DNA of 64,000 nt from Pirellulales bacterium (GTDB taxonomy: Bacteria > Planctomycetota > Planctomycetia > Pirellulales > Thermoguttaceae). Below the pieces are notes generated by a model. It was not told where the DNA came from. It ran no database searches and saw nothing but the letters and a program-made list of their open reading frames with translations. This document shows positions 204 to 14,613 of the stretch, piece by piece. Both the position numbers and the translations under genes were made by a program. Every line of letters begins with the position of its first letter. Position 1 is the stretch's first letter. The stretch covers positions 1 to 64,000 of the forward strand of contig JAFGRD010000097.1 of NCBI GenBank assembly GCA_016935315.1, written 5' to 3'.

Positions 204-3200
204 ATGTCGCCATCCGTTTCGTCGATCCTTGTCCGGCGCAGGCAGGTTTTCGCCGCGAGCCTGCTGATCGGCGCGCTGACCGTCGCGGTGGGGCGCGCCG
301 ACGAGGCGGATGATCGCTATGCGGTGGCGGCGGGACACTATCAACAGCAGCGATGGAACCTGGCTGTTGAGGCGTTTCAGTCGTTGCTGCGGGAGTATCC
401 GCGACACGCCAAGGCAAACCAGAGCATCTTCTTCCTCGCCGAGGCCCTACTGCAACTGGGCAATACGGAAGAGGCCGATGCGCACTTCCGGCAATACCTC
501 AACCGGGACCCGGAGGGCCGCTACGCACGGCCGGCGCTGTTTCGCGCAGGCGAGGCGGCCTACCTGGCCGGCAAGCCCGAACTGGCCAAGGCCGACCTGA
601 AGCGGTTCCGCGACCAGTACCCGGACGACAACCTCAACGCCTACGTTTTGCCCTACCTGGGTGACTTGGCTCTGGGGGAGGGAGATGCGACCTCGGCGGG
701 GCGATTCTTCCGCGAGGGCCTGGACCGCTTTCCGCAGGGGCGGCTGCAGGACGATTGCCGATTCGGGCTGGCCCGCGCCCTGGAAAGACGGGGTGAGAAC
801 CAGGAAGCCCTGCAACTCTATGGGGCGGTCGCCGCCAAGGCGGACAGCCCGCTGGCCGACGACGCGCAGTTCCATCTGGGCGCCTTGCAGTATGCGATGG
901 GTGAGTACGTCCGGGCGATCGAGACCTTCGGCGTCTTCGAAACGGCACGGACCGAAAGCCCGTGGAAGGCCCACGCCCGACTGGGACGCGGTTGGGCCCT
1001 GCTGAAGCTCGACCGACTCGACGAGGCCCAGCCCTTGTTCGAAAGCACCACGTCCGACCCTCGGGTCGGGATCGAAGCCAGGTACTGGCTCGGCATGACC
1101 CAGCGGGGACGTGAGGATTGGGCCGGCGCGGCCAAGACGCTGCTGGCGGCCACGGCGGCCGATCCCCAACACGCGTTGGTCGCGTCGATGCGGTATCACG
1201 CCGGCGACGCGCTGCGCCGCGTAGGGCGGGCGGAAGAGGCCGACCGGCAGTTCGACGAGGTGATTGCCTCGACGGTCGCCGGCAACGAGTGGATCGACGA
1301 TGTGATGCTCGGCAAGATCCAGATTGCGCTGCAGGCGGAAGATTACGAGTCGGTCGATCGCGAAATGGCGGCGTTGGAGGAGCGGTTTCCCCAGAGCGCG
1401 CTGCGGGCCGACGCCCAGCGTGTGCGGGCACAGTCGCTGTTGAAGCGGAAACGGTACGACGAGGCCCTGCGACTGCTCGAGCCGCTGGTTCAGGCCGCCG
1501 GCGACCAGCAAGGTCCGGCGGACCGCTACCTTCTGGCGCAGGCGTTAGAAGGGCTGGGGCGTTATCAGGATGCGCTCGACGCGTTGCTGCCCGTGCTGGA
1601 TGCGACGGAAACGCGGCTGAAGGCCAGCGCCCAACTGACCCAGGGTTCCCTACTGCTGGCGCTGCGCCGCTACCCGGAGGCGATCGAGCCGTTGGAGGTC
1701 TTCCTGGCGACCGCCCCGTCCGGCGATGCAGAGGTCAAGGGCCGCGGGGAGCTGGCAATCTGCTACGCGCGGGCCGGCCGGCTCGACGACGCGAAGAAGG
1801 CCTATGCCGAGTTGCTCAGCAAACATGCCGCCCACAAGCTAATCGCCGCCACCACCGAACAACTGGCCGAGGCGGCCTACGAGGCCAACGACGCCGATTG
1901 GTCGGCCCAACTGTTTCGCTGGCTTCAGACGGATAGCGACTCCGACGAGTATTCGATCAAGGGGTTGCACGGGGTGGGCTGGAGCCAGTACCGGGCCGGT
2001 CAGCTCTCCGAGGCCGCGGCGACGTTCGAGAAACTGCTGGCGAAGAACCCGCCTGCCGCAGTGGCCGTTGAGGCCGCATGGGTGCGTGGCCGGATTCTCC
2101 AGCAGCTCGGATCGCCTGACGCGGCACTAGCCATGTACGACCTGGTGATCGACGAGTATCCCGACACGCCGCAGCATCCCAAGGCGTTGCTGGCGGCCGC
2201 CCGATTGCGCGACAAGCTCCAACAGGACCAGGAGGCGGCGGTTTTGTACGAACGCCTGGTCGAGCGCTATCCGGAGCTTCCCGACCTGGACGCAGCGCTA
2301 TATGAATGGGCGTGGGTGCTCGATGATCTGGATCGTGAGGATCAGTCGACCGCGCTGTTCGAGCGGCTTCGCAAGCAATACCCACAGAGCCGGTACGACA
2401 GCGACGCCACCTATCGACTGGCCCGCCGGGCGTATGCGGCGCAAGACTACGATCGGGCCAAAGAACTGGTCAAAGCGATCCTCGGCGACCAGACGAACAC
2501 GGCGATTCGAGAACACGCCCTGTATCTGCGAGGCCAGATCGCCGTGGCCCAGGCCGACTGGCCGCAGGTCGGCCAATCGTTCGCCGTCTTGCTGGAGGCG
2601 TTCCCCGAAAGCCCCCGGCGGCTGGTGGCGGAGTTCTGGGTGGCCGAGACGGAGTATCGCCTCGGCAACTACGAGCAGGCCGGGCGACAGCTCGATCGGC
2701 TTGCCCGGCAGACCCAGGCCCGCCAGGAGGCATGGCTGGCGATGATCCCCTTGCGGCGTGCCCAGGTGCTGGCGCAACAGCGGCAATGGACCGAGGCCCG
2801 CACCATCGCGTCGAAGATCGAGACGGAGTACCCGGATTTCGAGCAACAGCACGAAGCGGACTACGTGATCGGTGTCTGTCTGTCCGGCGAGGCCGATTTC
2901 GAGGGGGCCCGGGAGGCGTTCCGCCAGGTCATCCGCTCGACGACGGGGGCCAAGAAGGAGACCGCGGCCATGGCCCAGTGGCGGATTGGAGAGACCTATT
3001 TCCACCAGAAGAACTACGAAACGGCGATCCGAGAATACTTGCCGGTCGAAATCCTCTATGGGTATCCTACCTGGCAGGCCTTGGCCTTGCTGCAGGCCGG
3101 TAAGTGCCACGAAGAGCTAGGCGAACGAGAGGAGGCCGCCAGCCTCTACACACGGATCGTGACTGTCTATCCCAATACACCGTCGGCCGGTTTGGCCGAC

Positions 3201-3266
3201 CAGCGACTGAAGAGTCTCTCGGGCCAACCGGTCGGCGCCACCGGGCCGACCGATTCCGACCCGTAG
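204..3266 (+). CDS. Secreted tetratricopeptide-repeat protein
   Basis: The 1020-residue product starts with an Arg-rich n-region and a hydrophobic segment (about 9-32) typical of a signal peptide. Nearly all the rest is TPR repeats of about 34-36 residues, with recurrent W..A...F..L...YP and G.A....G...A patterns. It should act outside the cytoplasmic membrane as a protein-binding scaffold. It is the first of four same-strand genes followed by ExbB, ExbD and a TonB-like protein. A TPR protein next to such a motor recalls CpoB/YbgF beside Tol-Pal, so a role in envelope energetics is inferred from context. The ATG at 204 lacks a strong Shine-Dalgarno sequence but gives the signal peptide. Function beyond scaffolding is unknown. 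Confidence 0.88.
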
Positions 3267-3354
3267 GCACTGGAAACCGCGTGAACCGCCGTGTCGCAGA
3301 AGCGTACACACCCATAGCCAACCATCCCAAGTCTTTGTGTTGGAGCAAGCTAGC

Positions 3355-4263
3355 ATGAGAAGAGCCATCGCCATGTTCCGAGGGGGGACTGCCTGGCTGG
3401 TCGCGGCGATGTTGTCGATCAGCATTTGGGCCGTTGCCACGCCCTGTCCGGCGCAGCTCGAACCGGGCCCCAACGGGGCGGCCGACTTGGCCAACCCGGC
3501 CAGCGGATCGGCCACCACCGCCGGTGCGGAAGGCCCGGCCACGGCGACTCCCCTTTCCGACGACGCGCGCATTCCCACCAAGGACCTCTGGAGCATCGTC
3601 CGGGAGGGCGGACCGCTGATGATTCCCATCGTGGTCTGCTCGTTGATCCTGCTGGCGTTCGTACTGGAACGGACCATCAGTCTTCGCCGCGGCCGGGTGA
3701 TTCCAGGGCCGTTCGTGAAGCGATTCCTCAAGCAATTGCGCGAGGGTGAGCTGGACCGCGACGAGGCGCTGGCGCTGTGCAAGGCCAACGGCAGCCCGGT
3801 GGCTGAGGTCTTCACCGGCGCCGTCCGCAAGTGGGGCCGGCCCGCCGTCGAGGTCGAACAGGCCATCATCGACAACGGCGAGCGAGTTACCAACGGGCTG
3901 CGACGATACCTTCGGGTGATCAACGGTGTGGCCACCGTGGCACCCTTGCTGGGTCTGCTAGGGACGGTGGTGGGCATGATCCGAGCGTTCAACGACATCG
4001 CCACCGCCGACGCCATGGGCCGCCCCGAATTGCTGGCCGCCGGCATTAGCCAGGCCTTGCTGACCACGGCCGCCGGCCTCAGTGTGGCCATTCCCGCGTT
4101 GATCTTCTACCTGTTCTTCGTTAGCCGTGTCGATCGGCTGATCATCGATATTGACGCAATGGGTCAAGAGGTCGTCAATGTGATTGCCGCCGAGGAACTG
4201 GGGGAGAGCAAGGTTCCCGCTCCCAAGTCGCGCCGCAGCAGCCAACACGAATCGGCCGCCTGA
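3355..4263 (+). CDS. exbB: ExbB/TolQ/MotA-family proton channel protein
   Basis: This 302-residue protein begins with an added N-terminal hydrophobic segment (about 12-30, ending near PCPAQ) that looks like a cleavable signal or extra span. The ExbB core follows, with spans near 84-104, 187-211 and 232-258; the conserved [15 protein letters not shown] stretch is in the second span. With ExbD it forms the inner-membrane proton channel that powers a periplasmic partner. The ATG at 3355 is preceded by GGAG at 3342-3345 with good spacing; a GTG at 3337 would add six residues. The gene lies 88 bp after the TPR gene and 40 bp before exbD. It could power a TonB-like or a Tol-like partner. Confidence 0.93.
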
Positions 4264-4303
4264 GCGGTCGCCGGATAGCTGGACTCGAACCCCCGATCAT
4301 CCC

Positions 4304-4723
4304 ATGCCGCTGAAAACCCACCTCGACGAACAGCCGACGTTGAACTTGACGCCGATGATCGACATCGTGTTTCTGTTGATCATTTTCTTCATGGTGGGCA
4401 CCAAGTTCACGGAGTTGGAGCGAAAGATCGGACTCCGTGTGCCGGAGGTGGCCGACCGGGGCGCCCTGACCGCCGCCCCGGAACGCAAGATCGTCAACGT
4501 CTACCAGGACGGCACGATTACGCTCGACCAGACGCCCGTAACGCTCGACGAGCTGACCGAGCGTCTGGCCGAAGTCCGCAGCCAGTACGAAGACCTCGGC
4601 GTGCTGGTCCGCGGCGACGCCCAAGGCCAGTTCCAGGGCGTGGCCTCGGTGCTCAACGCCTGCAAGCAAGCGGGCGTGCGGGAGCTGGGCATCTCGGTCC
4701 GACTGTTACGTCGAGAGAACTGA
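4304..4723 (+). CDS. exbD: ExbD/TolR-family biopolymer transport protein
   Basis: The 139-residue product has the ExbD layout: a short cytoplasmic N-terminus, one span (about 19-33) and a periplasmic domain. The motif LNLTPMIDIVFLLIIFF places Asp20 where E. coli ExbD has its proton-carrying Asp25. I chose the ATG at 4304 because it gives the usual N-terminus. The open frame reaches back to 4184 but would overlap exbB and add an unrelated stretch. It is the partner of the ExbB at 3355, and the next gene starts 3 bp after its stop. Confidence 0.94.
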   Translation: MPLKTHLDEQPTLNLTPMIDIVFLLIIFFMVGTKFTELERKIGLRVPEVADRGALTAAPERKIVNVYQDGTITLDQTPVTLDELTERLAEVRSQYEDLGVLVRGDAQGQFQGVASVLNACKQAGVRELGISVRLLRREN

Positions 4724-4726
4724 CCC

Positions 4727-6859
4727 ATGGGTGCCCTTCGACTCGACCGGCTGCTCGACTTCCTCACCAGCGTGGAGTTGGTCGTGGGATTGCTCTGGGC
4801 CGGGCTGGCCGTCTTCACGTTGACGCTGCTCGTGCTGATGCGAACTCGCTGGGGCCAGTCCCGACCCCTGCGAAAGTGCATTGTGCTGTCGGTCCTGGCC
4901 CACGCACTGCTGGCCGGCTACGCCACGACGGTGGAAATCGTGGCGGCCAAGCCCTCGCTCGAAGAGCCGGTGCTGCGAGTCTCCTTCGTCGAGGGCCCCG
5001 TCGAGCGGACGCTCCCGACCGAAGCCCCCTTGGCCGAGGAGAAACCGTGGGAGAAGCTCGTCGACGATCACGTTCCCTTGCCTGCCGCGACCGAACCCGC
5101 CCCGCATGAGCCGGCCCTTCCACCCGAGCCGCAACGCCGGGTCCGAGCCGAGCCGAGTCGTCTGCCGGGCGAGTTGCCGCTGGATCATCTGGCGCTGTCG
5201 GAGGCCGAATTGCCCGAGCCGCAGCCGATCGACGTCGAGGAACCGGCCGGTCGCTCGTCGCCCGGCAAGTCGGCCGAGGAGATCGAGGTTCCCACTCCCC
5301 AACGGCGCGAGTCGCCCCTGTTGGCCCTGCCGGACGAGCCCATTCCCGAGAGGCCCGCGGCGATCGCCGAATCGCCCTTAACGCCGGTCCACGCTCCCGA
5401 CAGCAGTCTGCCGACCGAGTTGCTGCAGCAGGACGTTCCTTTGCCGCAATTGGCGGCCGAAGCCACTACGCCGCAGCCGGCGGAGTCGTTGGCCGGGCTG
5501 ACCGATCAACTGGCCCATCCCATGCGGATCGGATCCCGCGACGAAGCTTCCCAGGAGGCGGGTCGCTCGACCTCACAGGATGACGCAGCCCAATCCGGTG
5601 CATCCGATCCCTCGTACTCCGGTTCCCGGCAGCCCTGGTCGCCGGCGATCGACTCGCCAGATCAGACGTCCTCGGGTCCGTCAGAGGCCGAATCGCCCCC
5701 CGGCGACGCCGCGGTGATCGTAATTCCGGGAGCGCGTCGCGACGGGGCCGCGAAGACTCCCGCGGAAGTGCCGAAACCGTATAAGCTCCGGGTGGCGCCG
5801 GACCGTTCCCGCCTGGCCGAGCGCCGAGGGGCAACCCCCGCCACCGAGGCAGCCGTCAAAGCCGCGCTGCGATGGCTGGCCGAGAACCAGAGTGCCGACG
5901 GGCGGTGGGATGCTTCGGCCCTCGGCGCCGGCCGCGAGTCAAACGTGGCGGGGCGCAACCGCCAAAATGCCGGCGTCGAGGCCGACACCGGCCTGACCGG
6001 TCTGGCCCTGCTGGCCTTTCTGGCCTCCGGCCACACGCATCGCGAAGGGCCCTATCAGGAGAACGTGCGACGCGGCCTGGTCTTCCTGCTGAGAAACCAG
6101 AGGGTCGACGGTAGTCTGGCCGGCCAGGCTACCCCGTATGCCAAGATGTATTGTCACTCGATGGCCGCGTTCGCTTTGAGCGAAGCGTACGGGATGTCGG
6201 CCGACGAACGCCTGCGCGAGCCGGTCGGCCGGGCAATCGACTATACGATTGCGGCGCAGCACCCGACGCTGGGAGGCTGGCGATATCTGCCCGGAGATCC
6301 CGGCGACACGAGCCAATGTGGCTGGCAGGTCATGGCCCTGAAAAGCGCTGAGCTGGCCGGCATCCCGATTCCGTTGGCGACCCGCAACGGGGCCATTCGC
6401 TACCTGCGCAGTGCTTCGTCGGGCACGCATGGCGGACTGTCCTCGTATCGCCCCGGCGAGCGGGCCAGCCGACCCATGACGGCCGAGGCCCTGGTCTGCT
6501 GGCAGTTCCTCGGCATGCCCCGCGAGCACCCGGCCAGCGACGAGGCGGGAGACTATCTCTTGGAACAGCTGCCTGGCGAAGACCGGGCGAATCTCTACTA
6601 TTGGTACTATGGGACCCTGGGAATGTACCAGTTGCAGGGCGCCTATTGGCAGCGATGGAACGACGCCTTGAAGGCCGCCTTGCTCGACAGCCAACAGAAG
6701 ACCGGACCGTTGGCCGGGAGCTGGGATCCGAATACGGTCTGGGGTAGTTACGGGGGGCGCGTCTACAGCACGTCGCTGGCGGCGCTCTGCCTGGAAGTCT
6801 ACTATCGCTTCCTGCCGCTGTATGCGGATGCGGCCCCGAAAAACGATCAGGCCGGGTAG
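4727..6859 (+). CDS. TonB-like protein with C-terminal alpha/alpha-toroid domain
   Basis: This 710-residue protein has two N-terminal spans (about 15-38 and 51-72). The loop between them is positively charged (RTRWGQSRPLRK), which orients the second span in-to-out. That span carries S55-x3-H59 (SVLAH), the same spacing as the Ser-x3-His motif of the E. coli TonB transmembrane helix that contacts ExbB/ExbD. A Pro/Glu-rich region of about 290 residues follows, again as in TonB. In place of a TonB C-terminal domain, residues about 371-700 form squalene-cyclase/prenyltransferase-type helical repeats (ALRWLAENQSADGRW, LVFLLRNQRVDGSL). No DxDD cyclase acid motif was seen, so a binding role is more likely than cyclase catalysis. 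It starts 3 bp after exbD. The energy-transducer role is inferred. Confidence 0.82.
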   Translation: MGALRLDRLLDFLTSVELVVGLLWAGLAVFTLTLLVLMRTRWGQSRPLRKCIVLSVLAHALLAGYATTVEIVAAKPSLEEPVLRVSFVEGPVERTLPTEAPLAEEKPWEKLVDDHVPLPAATEPAPHEPALPPEPQRRVRAEPSRLPGELPLDHLALSEAELPEPQPIDVEEPAGRSSPGKSAEEIEVPTPQRRESPLLALPDEPIPERPAAIAESPLTPVHAPDSSLPTELLQQDVPLPQLAAEATTPQPAESLAGLTDQLAHPMRIGSRDEASQEAGRSTSQDDAAQSGASDPSYSGSRQPWSPAIDSPDQTSSGPSEAESPPGDAAVIVIPGARRDGAAKTPAEVPKPYKLRVAPDRSRLAERRGATPATEAAVKAALRWLAENQSADGRWDASALGAGRESNVAGRNRQNAGVEADTGLTGLALLAFLASGHTHREGPYQENVRRGLVFLLRNQRVDGSLAGQATPYAKMYCHSMAAFALSEAYGMSADERLREPVGRAIDYTIAAQHPTLGGWRYLPGDPGDTSQCGWQVMALKSAELAGIPIPLATRNGAIRYLRSASSGTHGGLSSYRPGERASRPMTAEALVCWQFLGMPREHPASDEAGDYLLEQLPGEDRANLYYWYYGTLGMYQLQGAYWQRWNDALKAALLDSQQKTGPLAGSWDPNTVWGSYGGRVYSTSLAALCLEVYYRFLPLYADAAPKNDQAG

Positions 6860-6907
6860 CGCTGCGGTGCCTGGAGCCGCACGCGCTCGTTGCGCCAGAC
6901 GCGGCGA

Positions 6908-7007
6908 TGATGTCTGCATTGCGAATGATCAAAGCCGATCCACGGGAGGCCGGAGAAATCGGGCTCCCGCTGGTCGCCCTCGCGCATTGATCCTGCACAC
7001 GTCAGTA
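6908..7007 (+). repeat. Dispersed ~95-bp palindromic repeat, copy A
   Basis: This copy is in the gap before the beta-helix gene. The inner stem pairs CGGGAG with CTCCCG, followed by CTGGTCGCCCTCGCGC. The outer arms are TGTCTGCAT and TGCACACGTCA. The same arrangement recurs at 13280, 61740 and 62008. Short open frames in such copies are spurious. Confidence 0.75.
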
Positions 7008-7051
7008 AGACAGCCCCACGCGGAGTCGTCCTTGCGCAGAAGGAGAATCCC

Positions 7052-8734
7052 ATGGCGTACTTCCAAATGGTCTTGATCAGCGGTCTGTTGCTCGGCAACT
7101 CGGTGGTGACGGCCGAAACCTACCACGTGGCGCAAGGGCATCGCACCGCGTCCGACGCCAACCCCGGCACGCAGTCGGCACCCTGGAAGACGATCACGAA
7201 GGCGGCCGAAGCGCTCTTGCCGGGCGACACGGTCGTGATTCACGCCGGAACCTACCGCGAGTGGGTGCGGCCTGACCGCAGCGGCACTTCCCAAGCCCCC
7301 ATCGTCTTTCAGGCCGCGGCGGGCGAACGGGTCGTCCTCACGGGCGCGGACGTCGTCTCCGGCTGGGTGCCCGACCGAGGGGCCGTTTGGAGAAAGGAGC
7401 CCTGGCCGTATCGGTTCGCGACACACCCCGACGACCAGCGCCATCGGCTCATCGGCCGATGTGAGCAGGTCGTCGTCGACGGCCGCCTCTTGAAGCAGGT
7501 CGCGCGGCGCGAAAAGATGACGGCCGGCAGTTTCTGTGCCGACACGGACGCGAAAGCCCTTTACGTGTGGCTTCCCGACGGCGGTGATCCCGGCGGGCGC
7601 CTGGTCGAGGCCAGCGTTCGGCCGGTCTGTTTCGGCCCCGGATGGGGTCGGCCGCCGCGGCACCATATCAGGCTGCGCGGCCTGACGATTCGCTATGCGG
7701 CCAACACGGCGCAGCGCGGCGCCCTGTTTGCCACCGGCAACGGTTGGCTCGTCGAGGATTGCGAGGTGCAATGGACCAACGGGTCGGGCATCTCGTTTCG
7801 CGGCGACGACGTCGTGTTTCGCCGTGTCCGCACGCACCACAACGGCCAGCAAGGAATGGGCGGAGGGGGACGCCGGTTCTGCCTGGAAGACGTGATATTC
7901 GACCACAACAACCTCAAGGGATTCGACCAGAACTGGGAAGCGGGCGGCACGAAAATCACTCACGGCCGCAGCGGCGTGCTCCGCCGCTGCCGTGCCGTTG
8001 CTAATACGGGGACGGGCATCTGGTTCGACATCGACGTCCGCGACGTGCTGGTCGAACAGTGTTTCGCGAAAGACAACGCCGGACACGGCATCTTCGTGGA
8101 GATCAGCGGCGGATTCACCATCCGCAACAACCTTTGCGTCCACAACGGCACGGAGGACCGCTGGGGCAGCGGCGGGATCTCGCTGGGCGAAAGCGACCAC
8201 TGCACGATCGAAAACAACACCTGCGTGCTGAATCCCACCGGGATCAGCCTGCGCGAACAGGGGCCCCGCACCTGCCGCAGCATCGACGGCCAGCAAGCCA
8301 CCTATCACATCCACGACGTGACGGTCCGCGGCAACGTCTGCGCGCTGAACCGCCGCTATCAGATCGGCCTCTGGTGGGACAACCCGTTCTTCGGCCCGCA
8401 CCCCAGCAGCAACGTCGGCTTGCGCGGCACGCCGTACGACCCCGACCAGAACCAGATCCAGTTCGAGGGAAATCTGTACTGGTCGGAGGGCGATCAGGCG
8501 CTGGCACTCTGGGGCTGCCCCTGGCGGCCGGAGCACAAGAGATATCTCGACCTGGCGACCTGGCAACGCCAACGCAAGCAGGACCTGCAATCGCTGGCGG
8601 CCGACCCGCAATTCGTTTCGCCGGCGGCGGGCGACTGGAACCTACGGCCGCGGAGCCCGGCCCGCCGGCTCGGGGCCGGCCCGGCGATGCCGCTGCGTAT
8701 CCCTTCTTCCATTCCCGCTCAGTTCTTCAACTGA
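7052..8734 (+). CDS. Secreted right-handed parallel beta-helix protein
   Basis: The 560-residue product has a signal peptide (about 1-21, cut near VVTAE). A DUF1565-like opening follows (SDANPGT, PWKTITKAA, PGDTVVIHAGTYRE), which is the usual entry of pectate-lyase-like beta-helices. Residues about 170-430 hold the solenoid, with turns such as IENNTCVLNPTGISL and IRNNLCVHNG. The family includes polysaccharide lyases and adhesin-like proteins, so a role in binding or degrading acidic polysaccharide is plausible, but the substrate cannot be told. The gene follows repeat copy A. It is convergent with the ThuA gene and overlaps its 3' end by 16 bp. Confidence 0.88.
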   Translation: MAYFQMVLISGLLLGNSVVTAETYHVAQGHRTASDANPGTQSAPWKTITKAAEALLPGDTVVIHAGTYREWVRPDRSGTSQAPIVFQAAAGERVVLTGADVVSGWVPDRGAVWRKEPWPYRFATHPDDQRHRLIGRCEQVVVDGRLLKQVARREKMTAGSFCADTDAKALYVWLPDGGDPGGRLVEASVRPVCFGPGWGRPPRHHIRLRGLTIRYAANTAQRGALFATGNGWLVEDCEVQWTNGSGISFRGDDVVFRRVRTHHNGQQGMGGGGRRFCLEDVIFDHNNLKGFDQNWEAGGTKITHGRSGVLRRCRAVANTGTGIWFDIDVRDVLVEQCFAKDNAGHGIFVEISGGFTIRNNLCVHNGTEDRWGSGGISLGESDHCTIENNTCVLNPTGISLREQGPRTCRSIDGQQATYHIHDVTVRGNVCALNRRYQIGLWWDNPFFGPHPSSNVGLRGTPYDPDQNQIQFEGNLYWSEGDQALALWGCPWRPEHKRYLDLATWQRQRKQDLQSLAADPQFVSPAAGDWNLRPRSPARRLGAGPAMPLRIPSSIPAQFFN

Positions 8735-9576
8735 TTGGCCTTGGGCGTCACCTGAGCGATGTTCGGCGTGACGTCGGCGTCGACGTTGCCCATCGTCCAG
8801 GCGAAGCCGCCGAGCATGATCGATTGGACGGCCGGGTTGGTCCAGATGTCGTCGCGATGGCCGAAGGAGGTGTAGAAGACGCGGCCCTTGTCGTGCATCC
8901 TCGCCCAAGTGGCCGGGAACGGAGGCCGCTGGTAGCAGCCGCCCTGCATTCCCTCGGTCTCTTGCACCAGAATCACGTGCAAGTTCTCGGCAAATTTCTC
9001 CAGAGCGTACCACTCCTCGTGCATCGTGAGCGATTTCTCCTTACCCACGCCCGGAAACTTCGGCGACGTGACCGTCACGGTCGCTTGCTGCTGGGGACCG
9101 TGAGAAACGAACTCTCCGCCCAGCATGGCGATGTACGGGTCGATGCCGCCGCTCTGGAACGAGTCGGTGGCCGCGTGGATTCCAACAAAACCCTTGCCGG
9201 CGGCGATGGCGTCCAACAGCTTTTTCTTTCCCTCGGGCGACATCGGCGGGCCCTGGCCTTCTTTGGGCTGGGTCAGGTCGCCGGACGTGTAGAAGGCGAT
9301 GCAGTCGTATTGGTCCAGATCGCCGTCGAACACCGTGCCGTCCTTGGTACACTCGACCTCGAATCCGGCCTTCTTGCCCATCTCGATCAGCGTCTTTTCC
9401 GAGAAGCTCAGCTCGTCGCCGTTGCGCTTGACGGCTCCGTGCTCGAACCCGGCGCTGCGGGTGAAGTAAAGCACCTTCTGCTTCTTGTTCTCAGCGGCCG
9501 CAGCCCAGCCGAAGGGAAAGGTGGACAAGCCGAGCACGGCGGCCCCGGTGGCGGCCAGCATTTCGCGACGTTTCAT
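8719..9576 (-). CDS. ThuA-domain protein with twin-arginine signal
   Basis: The 285-residue protein begins MKRREMLAATGAA, a twin-arginine (Tat) export signal of the kind common in planctomycetes. A ThuA fold, a class I glutamine-amidotransferase-like domain, fills residues about 34-275. Visible conserved stretches are VLYFTRSAGFEHG at the start, GFVGIHAATDSF in the middle and RVFYTSFGHRDD near the end. ThuA proteins are linked to sugar metabolism (named from trehalose utilisation) and are often secreted in planctomycetes; the reaction is unproven. I chose the ATG at 9576 because the longer open frame would be read out of the inverted repeat of the neighbouring mobile element. Confidence 0.9.
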   Translation of the reverse strand: MKRREMLAATGAAVLGLSTFPFGWAAAAENKKQKVLYFTRSAGFEHGAVKRNGDELSFSEKTLIEMGKKAGFEVECTKDGTVFDGDLDQYDCIAFYTSGDLTQPKEGQGPPMSPEGKKKLLDAIAAGKGFVGIHAATDSFQSGGIDPYIAMLGGEFVSHGPQQQATVTVTSPKFPGVGKEKSLTMHEEWYALEKFAENLHVILVQETEGMQGGCYQRPPFPATWARMHDKGRVFYTSFGHRDDIWTNPAVQSIMLGGFAWTMGNVDADVTPNIAQVTPKANQLKN

Positions 9577-9609
9577 GGCGGGATCTCCAATGGAAGGAAA
9601 GGGAATCGT

Positions 9610-9842
9610 CTGCACTTTCTGAAAAAACGGCACTTAGGCCTACGAATTGGGGGAAAGGCGGTGTAGCCGCGTTTCCCTCAATTTCGACTTCGTATCGCTG
9701 CATGCCCTGCCATCGGACCCATGATTCCTCGACAACCCGCCGGCAGGGCCTGGCGCGGGAAAAACGCCATGAAAGAGCAAAGCCGCTGCGCGCCTTTCCT
9801 CCTTTCATATAGGCCTAAGTGCCGTTTTTTCAGAAAGTGCAG
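9610..9842. mobile_element. MITE-like / foldback element with 33-bp perfect terminal inverted repeats
   Basis: Positions 9610-9642 and 9810-9842 are exact 33-bp reverse complements (outer end CTGCACTTTCTGAAAAAACG). The symmetry continues imperfectly inward for about 30 bp on each side, for example GGGGGAAAGGCGG against the complement of CGCGCCTTTCCTCC. The flanks AATCGT (9604-9609) and AATCTT (9843-9848) differ at one base and may be an old 6-bp target duplication. There is no coding capacity for a transposase in the 233 bp. It starts 33 bp upstream of the thuA start, in the thuA/hydrolase gap (9577-9886), where nothing else was recognised. Confidence 0.7.
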
Positions 9843-9886
9843 AATCTTGGCAGAACGCGCAATTATGGGTTATGCGGGGCGCGGAA

Positions 9887-12187
9887 TCAAGGCTCCGGCC
9901 ACCGAAGGTGCCGGTGGAGGAACTCGAACGTGCCTTGCCCGTGGATCGTGTGGGGGCCGACGAACCATTCGATGCCGCACCGGTCACCGATTCCCAGTTG
10001 GGCCTGGTAAAGATGCCGCACCTTGGCGAATTCGTAGGCGACCCGCTCGTCCGGAGCCACGCCGTCGAAATGGCCGCGCTCGACCATGAACGGCCGGGGA
10101 CAGATCAGCGCGGCCATCTCCGCATAGTTGAACGTGTTGCCCAGGTCGAACTCGAAGATCTCGTATTCACCGGTCCAGACGTAGCTGTGGCGGGCACGCG
10201 TCGAGGCGTTCTTCCAGATCCAATCGTTGAAGTCGGCTGAGCAGATCGACAGGCAATAGCCCTCAACCAGCGGCGGCACCCGCATGGCCGTCTTGCCGCC
10301 GTAGGAGAGACCGTACAAGCCGATCCGCTGCGGGTCGACCTGCGGCAGCGTGGCCAGCCAGCGGACGATCTGCTCGTGCTGGGGCACGATGATCGAGAAG
10401 AGCGTCCTCTTGATCGGATTGGCCTTCCGCTGTAGCGTGCGGAAGCGATCGCCGAACAAATAGAGGTTCTGCGGGGCGAAGGTAACAAAACCCCGCTCGG
10501 CCAGCTTGGCGGCCAGATCGTGATACGCCCGATGGTCGCCGGCAACTAATTGCTGTGGCCGGCCCTCCAGCCCGTGTTGGCAAACGACCACGGGCCGGCG
10601 CTCACCCGGCTTGACGTCCTTCGGCAACAGGAGAATACCGTAGGCGATCACGTCGGGAAAGACGTCCAGGACCACTTCGTAGCCGGTCCATTCTGGCTGG
10701 TCGTATGCCTTGCGGCAACGGACGTTCGGCGGCAACAGTTCGTGCTCGAACCGCCCGATCACCTCGTCGTAGAAGTATTCGCGGCACGACTCGATCCCCT
10801 TCTGAAACGTCTCCAGCGAAGTGCGGTCGAGCTTCGCAAAGAACTCCTCGCGGACATAGGGGCTCTCTGCCAACAGCCACTGGTTGTGGCGGTCGAGTTC
10901 GTGCATCTGCCGCTGGTGACGTGGCGCCGGGTCGAACGAGTCGCGGAGTTGCTCGGGCGGCTTTCCCAAGGCGGCCAGCTTGGCACCGGGGGAAAGGGCA
11001 TCGAGAAACGCCTGCAAGGCCGCCGCCGAGCCGAACGAGCCGACGCCGTCGCCGCTTTCGACCAGCGCGAGCCGTGGGGCCGGCTGAAGACCTTCGGTCA
11101 GGGCTCGCGCCCGGGCCAACTCGCGCCGCACTTCCTCCAGCTCCGGCGTGACCAACCGCCCCGGCCCGCCGCCGGTGCCGGGGGGAATCGCGAACTGCGG
11201 TCCCCGGGCGGCCTCGACGATCAACGTCCGCGGCGCGACCATGGCGGCCAGCTCGGCGTCGCCGAATCGTTCCAGCAGCCCGAAGACGTTGCGGTCCAAG
11301 GGCTCTTGCCAGAGATTCTGCCGCGAGGCGAAGTACCCGCTGACGCACGCCACGTCGATCCGCGGGTCCAAGGCTGCCGAGCATAGGGCGAGCATGCCGC
11401 CCTCGCCGAATCCGAAGACGCTTCTGCGCGACGGTCGGTCACCGTGCGATCGGCTGAACCAGTCGATGCCGGCCAGCACCTTCTGCAACTCGTAGCCGAT
11501 CAGATGACGGCCCAGCTCGAAGGCCGGACGGTAGAGATACTCGCGGTTGGTCAGTCGCACGCCGCAACGCGGCTCGACCTGCCGGTCGACGAGCATCGGC
11601 ACCAGCACGCGACAGCCGCTCTCGGCCAGCCGCCGGGCGAACTGCGATTCGGGCGGCAGACCCTTGGCAAGGCCGGCAATCATTTCGGGCGTTTGTCCCG
11701 CGTCGGGAATCGCCACGACGTCGCCGACAGACTCCGCGCTTGCCGGCACCAGCAACAGCCCCTCGCCGTGCACGTCGCCGAAGGCCGGCCAACGCACGAC
11801 GTATACCCGATATCCGTCACCACGGCCGACCAGGGCCGGCTTCGCCGTCGTGCCGACCAACTCCGGACCGTCAAATGGGATCCGTGCGTCCCGCAGACCC
11901 AAAATATGGGCCAGTCGCTCTCGGCCGGGCCCCATCGAGGCGTCGTATTGCCCCGGTGACGACGTGTCGCGCTGCCAGTGTGCGGCCCGACGCTCGATCG
12001 ACTTCTCGATTTCACGAAGCAAAAACCGATCGACGCCGTCGACCAGTTGCGAGGCGATATCGCCGTCGATCGTCAGCGGCCTGGTGCCCGGCAAGGGGCC
12101 CGCGGCCGCAGACGACGCGACAGCCAGTGAGCAGAAAACAGCAGGCAGCAAGAATCGAAGCCGCGGCAGACGACGGAGAAGCGACAT
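9887..12187 (-). CDS. Secreted double alpha/beta-hydrolase (acetyl-xylan-esterase-like)
   Basis: The 766-residue protein has a clear signal peptide (about 1-29, SLLRRLPRLRF then a hydrophobic core). Two alpha/beta-hydrolase units follow. The second is intact in appearance: nucleophile elbow GLSYGG near 625-630 and a late His in GPHTIHGQG near 745. The first has GFGEGG near 256-261, where the elbow Ser is replaced by Gly, so this half is probably not catalytic. The architecture resembles planctomycete esterases of the AXE1/dienelactone-hydrolase type that act on plant or algal polysaccharide esters. AAGGAGG lies 6 nt before the ATG. Substrate unknown. Confidence 0.87.
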   Translation of the reverse strand: MSLLRRLPRLRFLLPAVFCSLAVASSAAAGPLPGTRPLTIDGDIASQLVDGVDRFLLREIEKSIERRAAHWQRDTSSPGQYDASMGPGRERLAHILGLRDARIPFDGPELVGTTAKPALVGRGDGYRVYVVRWPAFGDVHGEGLLLVPASAESVGDVVAIPDAGQTPEMIAGLAKGLPPESQFARRLAESGCRVLVPMLVDRQVEPRCGVRLTNREYLYRPAFELGRHLIGYELQKVLAGIDWFSRSHGDRPSRRSVFGFGEGGMLALCSAALDPRIDVACVSGYFASRQNLWQEPLDRNVFGLLERFGDAELAAMVAPRTLIVEAARGPQFAIPPGTGGGPGRLVTPELEEVRRELARARALTEGLQPAPRLALVESGDGVGSFGSAAALQAFLDALSPGAKLAALGKPPEQLRDSFDPAPRHQRQMHELDRHNQWLLAESPYVREEFFAKLDRTSLETFQKGIESCREYFYDEVIGRFEHELLPPNVRCRKAYDQPEWTGYEVVLDVFPDVIAYGILLLPKDVKPGERRPVVVCQHGLEGRPQQLVAGDHRAYHDLAAKLAERGFVTFAPQNLYLFGDRFRTLQRKANPIKRTLFSIIVPQHEQIVRWLATLPQVDPQRIGLYGLSYGGKTAMRVPPLVEGYCLSICSADFNDWIWKNASTRARHSYVWTGEYEIFEFDLGNTFNYAEMAALICPRPFMVERGHFDGVAPDERVAYEFAKVRHLYQAQLGIGDRCGIEWFVGPHTIHGQGTFEFLHRHLRWPEP

Positions 12188-12330
12188 GGCAGACCTCCTT
12201 CGGTGAACAGACCGAGTTTTCGATCGCGGTGCAGGCCGGGACGTGGGGCACGCGGTGAGTGTACCACATCGGCGGTTGCGAGCGGTAGCCTGCGGAGGAA
12301 GAACGAGGTGGAGAATATCACCGCTGGAAT

Positions 12331-13239
12331 CTACAAATCCATCTCGTCCATCTCGTCGACCAGTGCGTCCAGATCACTCTTCTCGGCCGACGGATCCTGG
12401 GGAGATTCTCCCGCCAGTGCCCGGTCACGCTCGTCAGCGGCAATGTCCAGGCCGCCTCCCAGCCCGCCGAGCTGCAGCAGATCGGGCGTGTACGTGTCGG
12501 CCGCGGCCGCAGCGTCGCCGCCGATGGCCGGGGTCTGGTGTTCGGGAAACATGATCGCCTGCGACGGGCAGACGCGACTGCAAGCGGGACAGCCGTCGCG
12601 GCACGCGTCGGGCTGCTCCACAATCAATCGCTCGGAGACGTCCACGCCGAACACCCCAAACAGGCAGAAGTTCAAACACTCCAAGCAGTTGGCACAACGA
12701 CCGTAATCGACCACAGGATACCATCGAAAACCGGTCATTTCCTCCACTTGAGCCGACGCGGCGGCAGCAGCCGGCCGGCCCTCGCCGCCAGCGACCACCG
12801 GTTCCCCGATCGCTGCCGCCATCATCCGTCGGATCTCTTCCAGCACCGGTTCGGGCTTCTGATGTGAACGCAGGTCAAGACACCAGATCGTCCGCTGCGG
12901 ACCGTCCGGGGACGCCGAGGTCGAGCCGGCCGACGCTCCGCCGGCTTCGTCGTCCGGCAGCAACGACGCCGGGCCCATCCGACCCTTGATCTCGTTGGCG
13001 TCGAGCAACCAGTAGGTCGCCCGGGGATAGAGCGACGCGAGCACGACCATGTCACCGGGCAGCGATCGCAGAAACGCCATACCCGGCCCGTCCGGCGCCA
13101 GATCGTAGAGATGGGGCAGCGTGGTCAACGAAGTGTTCGGCCAACCGGCCAGCTCGTTTGCCAGTTGCCGTTCGAACGATCGCCGCGGCGACTGGGGGCC
13201 GCGGCCTTGCGAAATGATGATGGCGAGCTTGTCGGTCAT
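12331..13239 (-). CDS. Ferredoxin-like protein with two Cys clusters
   Basis: The 302-residue cytoplasmic protein has an N-terminal part (about 1-150) that I do not recognise. It is followed by CANCLECLNFC and, about 40 residues later, CRDGCPACSRVCP. The first cluster has standard C-x2-C-x2-C-x3-C spacing. The second is C-x3-C-x2-C-x3-C, slightly off the usual pattern. Each could hold a [4Fe-4S] centre. The C-terminus is acidic and Asp/Glu-rich (ending DEMDEMDL). No oxidoreductase partner is adjacent; the gene lies between the esterase and a PQQ lipoprotein on the same strand. An electron-carrier role follows from the motifs only. Confidence 0.82.
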   Translation of the reverse strand: MTDKLAIIISQGRGPQSPRRSFERQLANELAGWPNTSLTTLPHLYDLAPDGPGMAFLRSLPGDMVVLASLYPRATYWLLDANEIKGRMGPASLLPDDEAGGASAGSTSASPDGPQRTIWCLDLRSHQKPEPVLEEIRRMMAAAIGEPVVAGGEGRPAAAAASAQVEEMTGFRWYPVVDYGRCANCLECLNFCLFGVFGVDVSERLIVEQPDACRDGCPACSRVCPSQAIMFPEHQTPAIGGDAAAAADTYTPDLLQLGGLGGGLDIAADERDRALAGESPQDPSAEKSDLDALVDEMDEMDL

Positions 13240-13279
13240 GGGATGAGCTTGTTGGCGTTAGGGCGAGCTTGGCGGGGTG

Positions 13280-13382
13280 ATTGATGTTTGCATTGTGAAT
13301 AATCCAGGCCGACCAACGGGAGGCCGGACGAGTCGGGCTTCCGTTGGTCGCCCTCGCGTATTGAGTGTGCAAGCGTCAATAG
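13280..13382 (+). repeat. Dispersed ~95-bp palindromic repeat, copy B
   Basis: This is the best-preserved copy. The perfect inner stem is GACCAACGG...CCGTTGGTC, and the outer arms ATTGATGTTTGCA and TGCAAGCGTCAAT are near-complementary. It lies between two minus-strand genes and fills most of the gap. Confidence 0.8.
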
Positions 13383-13392
13383 GAACTCTCGG

Positions 13393-14613
13393 CTACTGCT
13401 GCTTGGCGCCGAAACAGTACAAATCGCCCTCGTCGGTGCCGATGATCAGCCGTCCGGCGGCCACGGCGGGCGAGGCGATGATCGATCCGCCGGCCTCGAA
13501 CTCCCAGAGCTTCCGGCCGGTCGCCAGTTCCAGGGCGTAGAGCCGTCCGTCGGCCGATCCCACGAACACGCGATTGCCGACGATGACCGGCGAACTGTCA
13601 ACCTGTCCTTTGGTGGTGAAGGTCCAGACGCCGTCGCCCGTTTCGGTGTCGACGGCGTGGACCAGCTTGTCGCGGGCGCCGACGACCACGATCTGGGGCG
13701 TCACCGCCGCCGAGGAGCGGAACTCGGTTGACTGATGCGGGCTTTGATAGCGCCAAACGACTTCGCCCTTCTGCCAGTCGATGGCGAACAGCGTGTTGCC
13801 GGTCGTGCCGACATAGGCCGTGTTCTGCAGCAAGGCCGGCGTGCAGAGCGTGGGGGCTTGGATGTCCACGCCCACCGACTCCTGGCCGGTGGCCAGATCG
13901 ACGACGTGCAGCCGGCCGTCGCATCCGGCCACGAAAGCCCGGTCGCCCGCAATCGTCGGGCTGCATTGGATCATGTCCTCGCTCTCGTATCTCCAGACTT
14001 CCCGACCGGTGTTGGCATTGAGGCAATAGAGCACGGCGTCTTGGGAGCCGAACAGCACGTTGTCCTGGTGGAAGCTGGCGCCGGCGTTGATTTCGGCCTC
14101 CGTCTGATAACGCCATTTCACCTTGCCGTTCTCCGCGTCGAGGCAATAAAACCACCCGTCGGCGTCGCCGATGTAAATCCCGCCGCTGCCCACGGCGGCT
14201 GACGCCGTGAAGCCCAGGTCGCTAAAGAACTCCCAGCGTTTCGTGCCGTCGGCCAGGCCGATCGCGTACAAGTTCCCGTCAAGGCAGCCCGCATAGACGG
14301 TTCCGTCGGCGATGGCCGCGGTCGCCTCGAAACCCAATTCGTCGACCGAAAAGGTCCAGAGCAATTGAAGCTTGTCGGACATGGTTCCCTCGGCCACCCC
14401 GGTCGCCTGGGGATTCCCGCGGAACATCGGCCAGGCGTTGTGGGCCGTCTGGCGGTTGGCTGCCGGAAGAGGCGACGCTGTCGTCGTGTTGATCGAAGCC
14501 GAGCCCTTCCCGTCGGCTGACGGCAGTGGGCGCCGGCATCCCAGCGCGCCAAAAAACCCCACGACACAACAGACCAGTGCGATCCAGCCGGTGGTCGATC
14601 GGAGATCGGGCAT
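13393..14613 (-). CDS. PQQ-like beta-propeller lipoprotein
   Basis: The 406-residue product has a lipoprotein signal: hydrophobic segment then GALGC, with Cys26 as the lipidated residue. A beta-propeller of seven to eight PQQ-type blades follows, each around a motif such as GTVYAGCLDGNLYAI, GGIYIGDADGWFYCL or DRAFVAGCDGRLHVV. It resembles BamB and quinoprotein-dehydrogenase propellers, but has no separate dehydrogenase signature, so a scaffold role is more likely than catalysis. The ATG at 14613 was chosen because it places the lipobox correctly; the longer frame adds 55 Arg-rich residues that look non-coding. Repeat copy B lies just downstream. Confidence 0.9.
   Translation of the reverse strand: MPDLRSTTGWIALVCCVVGFFGALGCRRPLPSADGKGSASINTTTASPLPAANRQTAHNAWPMFRGNPQATGVAEGTMSDKLQLLWTFSVDELGFEATAAIADGTVYAGCLDGNLYAIGLADGTKRWEFFSDLGFTASAAVGSGGIYIGDADGWFYCLDAENGKVKWRYQTEAEINAGASFHQDNVLFGSQDAVLYCLNANTGREVWRYESEDMIQCSPTIAGDRAFVAGCDGRLHVVDLATGQESVGVDIQAPTLCTPALLQNTAYVGTTGNTLFAIDWQKGEVVWRYQSPHQSTEFRSSAAVTPQIVVVGARDKLVHAVDTETGDGVWTFTTKGQVDSSPVIVGNRVFVGSADGRLYALELATGRKLWEFEAGGSIIASPAVAAGRLIIGTDEGDLYCFGAKQQ

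Follow-up and report, generated by a model that had tools for sequence, protein, structure and literature searches.

A TonB/TolA-like protein with an alpha/alpha-toroid tip, encoded beside ExbB- and ExbD-family genes in Pirellulales

Introduction

TonB and TolA are arms that pass force from a proton motor in the inner membrane to the outer membrane. Planctomycetes have unusual envelopes and, to our knowledge, divide without FtsZ. The closest precedent for the protein described here is a family of TonB/TolA-like transducers tipped by a vWA domain (Williams-Jones et al. 2025; PMC12204202), the genes of which, in PVC bacteria, often follow a TPR gene, a tolQ-like gene and two tolR-like genes, and the function of which is unknown (PMC12204202). 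Our protein has in common with this family a transmembrane helix carrying Ser and His, a disordered proline-rich linker, a C-terminal domain unrelated to those of TonB and TolA, and TPR and tolQ/tolR-like genes upstream. It differs in its toroid tip, in having one ExbD/TolR gene rather than a pair, and in an extra membrane span; a Pfam search finds no vWA domain in it.

TolA of the Tol-Pal system likewise shares the S-x3-H helix, a TolQ/TolR-like motor and a CpoB-like TPR gene in the operon, and a TolB-type propeller on the transducers of sister classes extends the likeness, but our protein is without TolA domain III, and its order is without a separate TolB_N domain or a Pal above cut-off. 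With TonB it shares the helix, a proline-rich linker and ExbB/ExbD neighbours, yet it has no TonB_C domain and its presence does not track TonB-dependent receptors. Squalene-hopene and type II terpene cyclases have the same alpha/alpha-toroid fold, whereas our protein lacks their D-x-D-D motif and adds a membrane hairpin, a linker and a motor operon.

The toroid transducer is widespread and, as far as the searchable literature goes, undescribed. The main text of PMC12204202 contains no toroid, squalene, prenyl, cyclase or Pirellulales-type names, and the open-access literature yielded no other description of a toroid-tipped transducer, subscription papers and preprints being outside the search. 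The main text of the Planctopirus limnophila essential-gene paper does not name the genes of the operon (PMC10632474).

Results and discussion

Architecture of the protein

The window is the whole stretch of DNA that was analysed, 64,000 nucleotides of contig JAFGRD010000097.1 from a Pirellulales bacterium (assembly GCA_016935315.1). Translation of its open reading frames gives an ATG-started frame of 710 residues spanning exactly 4727-6859 on the forward strand, which is also the strand of the operon genes and protein domains given below. The product begins with a membrane hairpin (4772..4942): the sequence has two hydrophobic spans, at residues 18-36 and 48-66, and AlphaFold2 places the corresponding helices at 16-39 and 47-72. 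A first-pass annotation made from the sequence alone had reported S55-x3-H59 in the second span, and both residues are indeed at those positions, within helix 47-72. The two helices are connected by a basic loop, RTRWGQSRPLRK, which by the positive-inside rule we infer to be cytoplasmic; the second helix would therefore be oriented in the TonB direction.

Beyond the hairpin lies the linker (residues 74-342, about 270 in all; 4946..5752), delimited by pLDDT and proline content. It is 17% proline and has a pLDDT below 50 nearly throughout, in keeping with the long proline-rich periplasmic region that the annotation had described. Among orthologues its length ranges from 107 to 335 residues, and its sequence diverges freely beside the conserved S-x3-H span. 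Just past the membrane there is a strand-like VLRVSFV segment, a possible motor box, with similar segments in many orthologues; the low-confidence model shows no strand at this place.

The C-terminal domain (residues 350-700; 5774..6826), delimited by pLDDT and VIA-align, is modelled with a pLDDT mostly above 90. It had been claimed that squalene-cyclase-like repeats replace the TonB domain here, and this is what we find: Pfam matches SQHop_cyclase_C over the C-terminal ~350 residues and does not match TonB_C, and VIA-align superposes the domain on squalene-hopene cyclase 2sqc with a Z of 26.4 over 292 residues at 3.0 Å. Identity to squalene-hopene and type II terpene cyclases is 16-18% over ~290 residues; scores against the squalene-hopene cyclase TIGR families are far below their cut-offs, and residues 345-710 contain no D-x-D-D cyclase motif. 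A profile of the hairpin found nothing significant among PDB sequences (best E 0.09), and a search of PHROGs was likewise without a match.

The operon and its motor genes

The gene lies directly downstream of three others, in the order TPR, ExbB-family, ExbD-family. The TPR gene (204..3266) encodes a protein of 1020 residues with a predicted N-terminal export signal and CpoB/YbgF- and BamD-like repeats (TPR_6, E 8e-63 in Pfam; TIGR02795 tol_pal_ybgF, 312 bits). The ExbB/TolQ-family proton-channel subunit (3337..4263; 308 residues; PF01618, E 1e-27) has tolQ as its best equivalog at 82 bits against 52 for exbB, both below cut-off, and the ExbD/TolR-family stator subunit (4304..4723; 139 residues, with the proton-carrying Asp20; PF02472, E 1e-26) scores best against TolR, also below the equivalog cut-off. 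Judged by these scores, the motor and accessory genes appear nearer to Tol than to Ton.

The first-pass annotation allowed that its TonB assignment would fall if the gene were usually found apart from exbB/exbD, and proposed a survey of planctomycetes for the four-gene order. The gene proves to be nearly always beside exbB/exbD. Upstream sequence of 1.6 kb or more is available for 68 named loci; ExbD is directly upstream of the transducer in all of them, and ExbB is upstream in 66. The TPR gene is upstream of ExbB in 44 of the 50 loci with at least 5.5 kb. In a whole-genome set of the order, all but one of 30 loci have the ExbB-ExbD-toroid order, the exception (L069) being a paralogue.

The motor residues are also conserved. 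ExbD D20, which aligns to the essential transmembrane aspartate of E. coli ExbD, is invariant in 30 of 30 sequences, as are S102, P203, T210, T244 and P253 in 30 sequences of ExbB. In the cryo-EM structure from E. coli, Ser16 and His20 of TonB touch Ser34 and Trp38 of ExbB, and Trp38 touches Pro190 (PMC12215075). S102 of the window ExbB is the counterpart of Ser34 and the proline is also kept, while Trp38 is replaced by Leu. The residue numbering of the E. coli ExbB sequence used in this alignment matches that given in PMC12215075.

Two further neighbours recur: a TatA-family gene, found 3' of the toroid gene at 56 of the 115 loci examined, and a gene for a BON-domain protein, found 5' of the TPR gene at 18 of 61 loci (both counted over L149-L228 and L039-L078). 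Neither neighbour is universal, and the gene for the partner remains unidentified. A link between the operon and Tat export was considered and dropped, as an N-terminus resembling a twin-arginine signal was seen in only 11 of the 84 TPR proteins.

Conservation of the Ser-x3-His motif

Loss of Ser and His in homologues would likewise have refuted the earlier proposal. Instead, in 77 orthologues from named genomes the His is invariant and the Ser is present in 74, the other three having Ala, against a background rate of 1.2% for S-x3-H in ORFs other than toroids (11 of their 895 hydrophobic spans). H59 is also invariant in an alignment of the window protein with 28 orthologues of the order, a set that shares members with the 77. 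The full SHLS motif is absent, with A66 at the Leu position (+11) and E70 at the second Ser position (+15); the Leu-Ser part of SHLS is less conserved in Ton (PMC12215075).

Distribution

The transducer and motor genes are conserved across planctomycetes, most of which are without standard TonB or Tol-Pal parts. The N-terminus of the transducer was found in 52 of the 57 genomes of the order searched, leaving five without it. Canonical TonB_C was found in 22 and a plug domain (E below 1e-10) in 27, the two co-occurring, with both in 21 genomes and neither in 29. The transducer is kept in 27 of these 29, and thus does not track TonB-dependent receptors. TolB_N was found in none of the 57 genomes and Pal_lipo above cut-off in none, and the tolB and pal expected of a genome with Tol-Pal are not seen in the order. 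Whether a canonical TonB accompanies the protein in its own genome had been left to be checked; no TonB_C was detected in that assembly, which does encode one TonB-dependent receptor (L068:7665-9782, contig C25).

Across the phylum, the hairpin profile matched 39 of 294 genomes, an undercount given that the profile is short and was built from one order. The toroid itself is present in 178 of 199 genomes, a figure that does not count transducers. A tree of the toroids supports a Pirellulales clade (0.905) and no deeper joins, and we therefore make no claim of a single origin.

Sister classes and possible other tips

The hairpin profile search also revealed, in other planctomycete classes, the same TPR-ExbB-ExbD operon with a transducer of 1,100-1,400 residues. 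In these the chain runs from an N-terminal span through a PD40 beta-propeller, the S-x3-H hairpin and a long linker to the toroid, and the predicted structure of one (L145) displays these elements. The best PDB matches of the propeller-fused chain are TolB crystal structures (E 5e-10); TolB structures can match the propeller part alone, so this whole-chain match concerns the propeller. Transducers of the propeller type are found at L129-L132, L135-L137, L139 and L141-L147, PD40 being confirmed in the five that were scanned (L129, L131, L132, L142 and L145). That of L129 additionally ends in a C-terminal PDZ domain.

In another order, the proteins of L134:4315-5838 and L148:2559-4247 have the same hairpin and linker but lack a toroid. 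L148 carries a CarboxypepD_reg domain where the toroid would sit, possibly a third kind of tip, and L134 looks similar by eye.

Interpretation

Our conclusion from these results is that the protein is probably a TonB/TolA-type force transducer whose tip is non-canonical. This agrees with the first-pass annotation, which pictured an envelope machine that, together with the TPR gene, may pull on a partner other than a TonB box. Its architecture, conservation, operon, motor residues and distribution are observed by computation, from which docking, force, partner and role are inferred; coupling to the motor in particular is inferred from sequence conservation alone. We propose that the S55/H59 face of the second helix would dock on TM1 of ExbB at Ser102 and, through TM1, reach the TM3 proline (Pro253), in the manner of TonB and TolA. 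The linker would then traverse the periplasm, and the toroid would grip an envelope partner, be it an outer-membrane protein, a lipoprotein or cell-wall glycan, in cycles of pulling or release powered by proton flux, with the TPR protein probably acting as a CpoB-like periplasmic coordinator.

Several observations sit uneasily with a force transducer: the replacement of ExbB Trp38 by Leu, the missing Leu-Ser part of SHLS, Ala for Ser in three of 77 orthologues, the extra N-terminal membrane span, the lack of an identified partner gene, and the five genomes, out of the 57 searched in the order, that are without the N-terminus. Moreover, the nearest folds of the toroid are enzymes (SHC, type II terpene cyclases, AprG, GH76 and cellobiose epimerase), and it has many invariant aromatic and polar residues, for example W518, R519, Y520, D527, H477 and E587, as expected of a substrate cleft, making it conceivable that the protein is a membrane-anchored glycan lyase, hydrolase, epimerase or cyclase, with the ExbBD motor merely nearby and unrelated. 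We regard this as unlikely, given that the S-x3-H face is conserved beyond the needs of any anchor and is kept by toroids of very different sequence, that synteny of the toroid gene with the motor is near-total, and that the cyclase motif is absent.

If the motor connection is accepted, the protein might still be a true substitute for TonB, energising TonB-dependent receptors by contact between toroid and plug, as the lone receptor of its TonB_C-less genome and the six genomes with a strong plug match and no TonB_C would allow. A strong plug, however, follows canonical TonB_C (21 of 22 TonB_C genomes), and the toroid transducer occurs with or without receptors, making such a substitution very improbable. 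We think it about as improbable that motif and operon survive only as a relic, the protein binding the motor but merely tethering the inner membrane to the cell wall as a static link. In favour of this, neither a partner nor a phenotype is known, and the linker is long and tolerates changes in length, but a static tether would have no need of the invariant proton-path residues of ExbB and ExbD in the same operon.

As to what the force transducer does, a Tol-like role, constricting the envelope or maintaining the outer membrane and not importing nutrients, is an argument by analogy that we would put at about even, no outer-membrane or division phenotype being known. It is favoured by TolQ, TolR and YbgF being the best equivalogs, by the fusion of the sister-class transducer to a TolB-like propeller, and by the absence of TolB_N and of Pal above cut-off from the 57 genomes. 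The operon is a near-universal Pirellulales candidate for outer-membrane upkeep or constriction without canonical Tol-Pal, and the toroid would be a second non-canonical tip of the TonB/TolA design, after vWA. What is new is this distribution (52 of 57 genomes for the transducer N-terminus, against 22 for TonB_C and none for TolB_N), together with the propeller fusions and the S-x3-H toroid paralogues described below. A second tip of this sort suggests that bacteria use the motor end as a general module and attach varied grippers to it. More tentatively, and with somewhat less than even confidence, we suggest that toroid-tipped proteins are the main envelope transducers of Planctomycetota, several to a genome and served by few shared ExbBD-type motors, standing in for Tol-Pal where it is absent, with the propeller version merging TolB-like and TolA-like jobs.

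Paralogues in the same genome

The genome of the window encodes a second complete TPR-ExbB-ExbD-toroid operon (L059:4177-14069, contig C120), with the TPR gene at 4177-7461, ExbD at 8573-8992 and, at 8985-14069, a toroid protein of 1,694 residues that has its own S-x3-H and a linker of more than 1,000 residues. In four more of its toroid proteins S-x3-H sits in a lone membrane span, and no motor gene was found alongside; one-span paralogues of this kind, again with no motor genes found next to them, include L060:5368-7395, L061:4997-8530 and L062:5379-7184, the first of which adjoins MoxR-like and DUF58-like genes (by eye). We had considered other toroids as a control group of soluble, motif-free paralogues, and this was ruled out when S-x3-H was found in 20 of 30 toroid ORFs checked (from several genomes, two of them N-terminally truncated). 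With so many toroid paralogues carrying S-x3-H spans, there are several such proteins per genome, and by inference those without a motor of their own may share motors in trans. The distant toroids of the same genome, L235-L239, have no S-x3-H. Elsewhere in this genome, L066:4886-9416 (contig C77) contains a toroid-like gene (by eye) and, downstream of it, genes for a 291-residue membrane protein and for ExbB, plus a pair of ExbD genes. Finally, a 103-nt interspersed repeat occurs twice in the window (6908-7010 and 13282-13384), the copies being 81% identical, and fragments resembling the translated repeat were seen by eye in other contigs.
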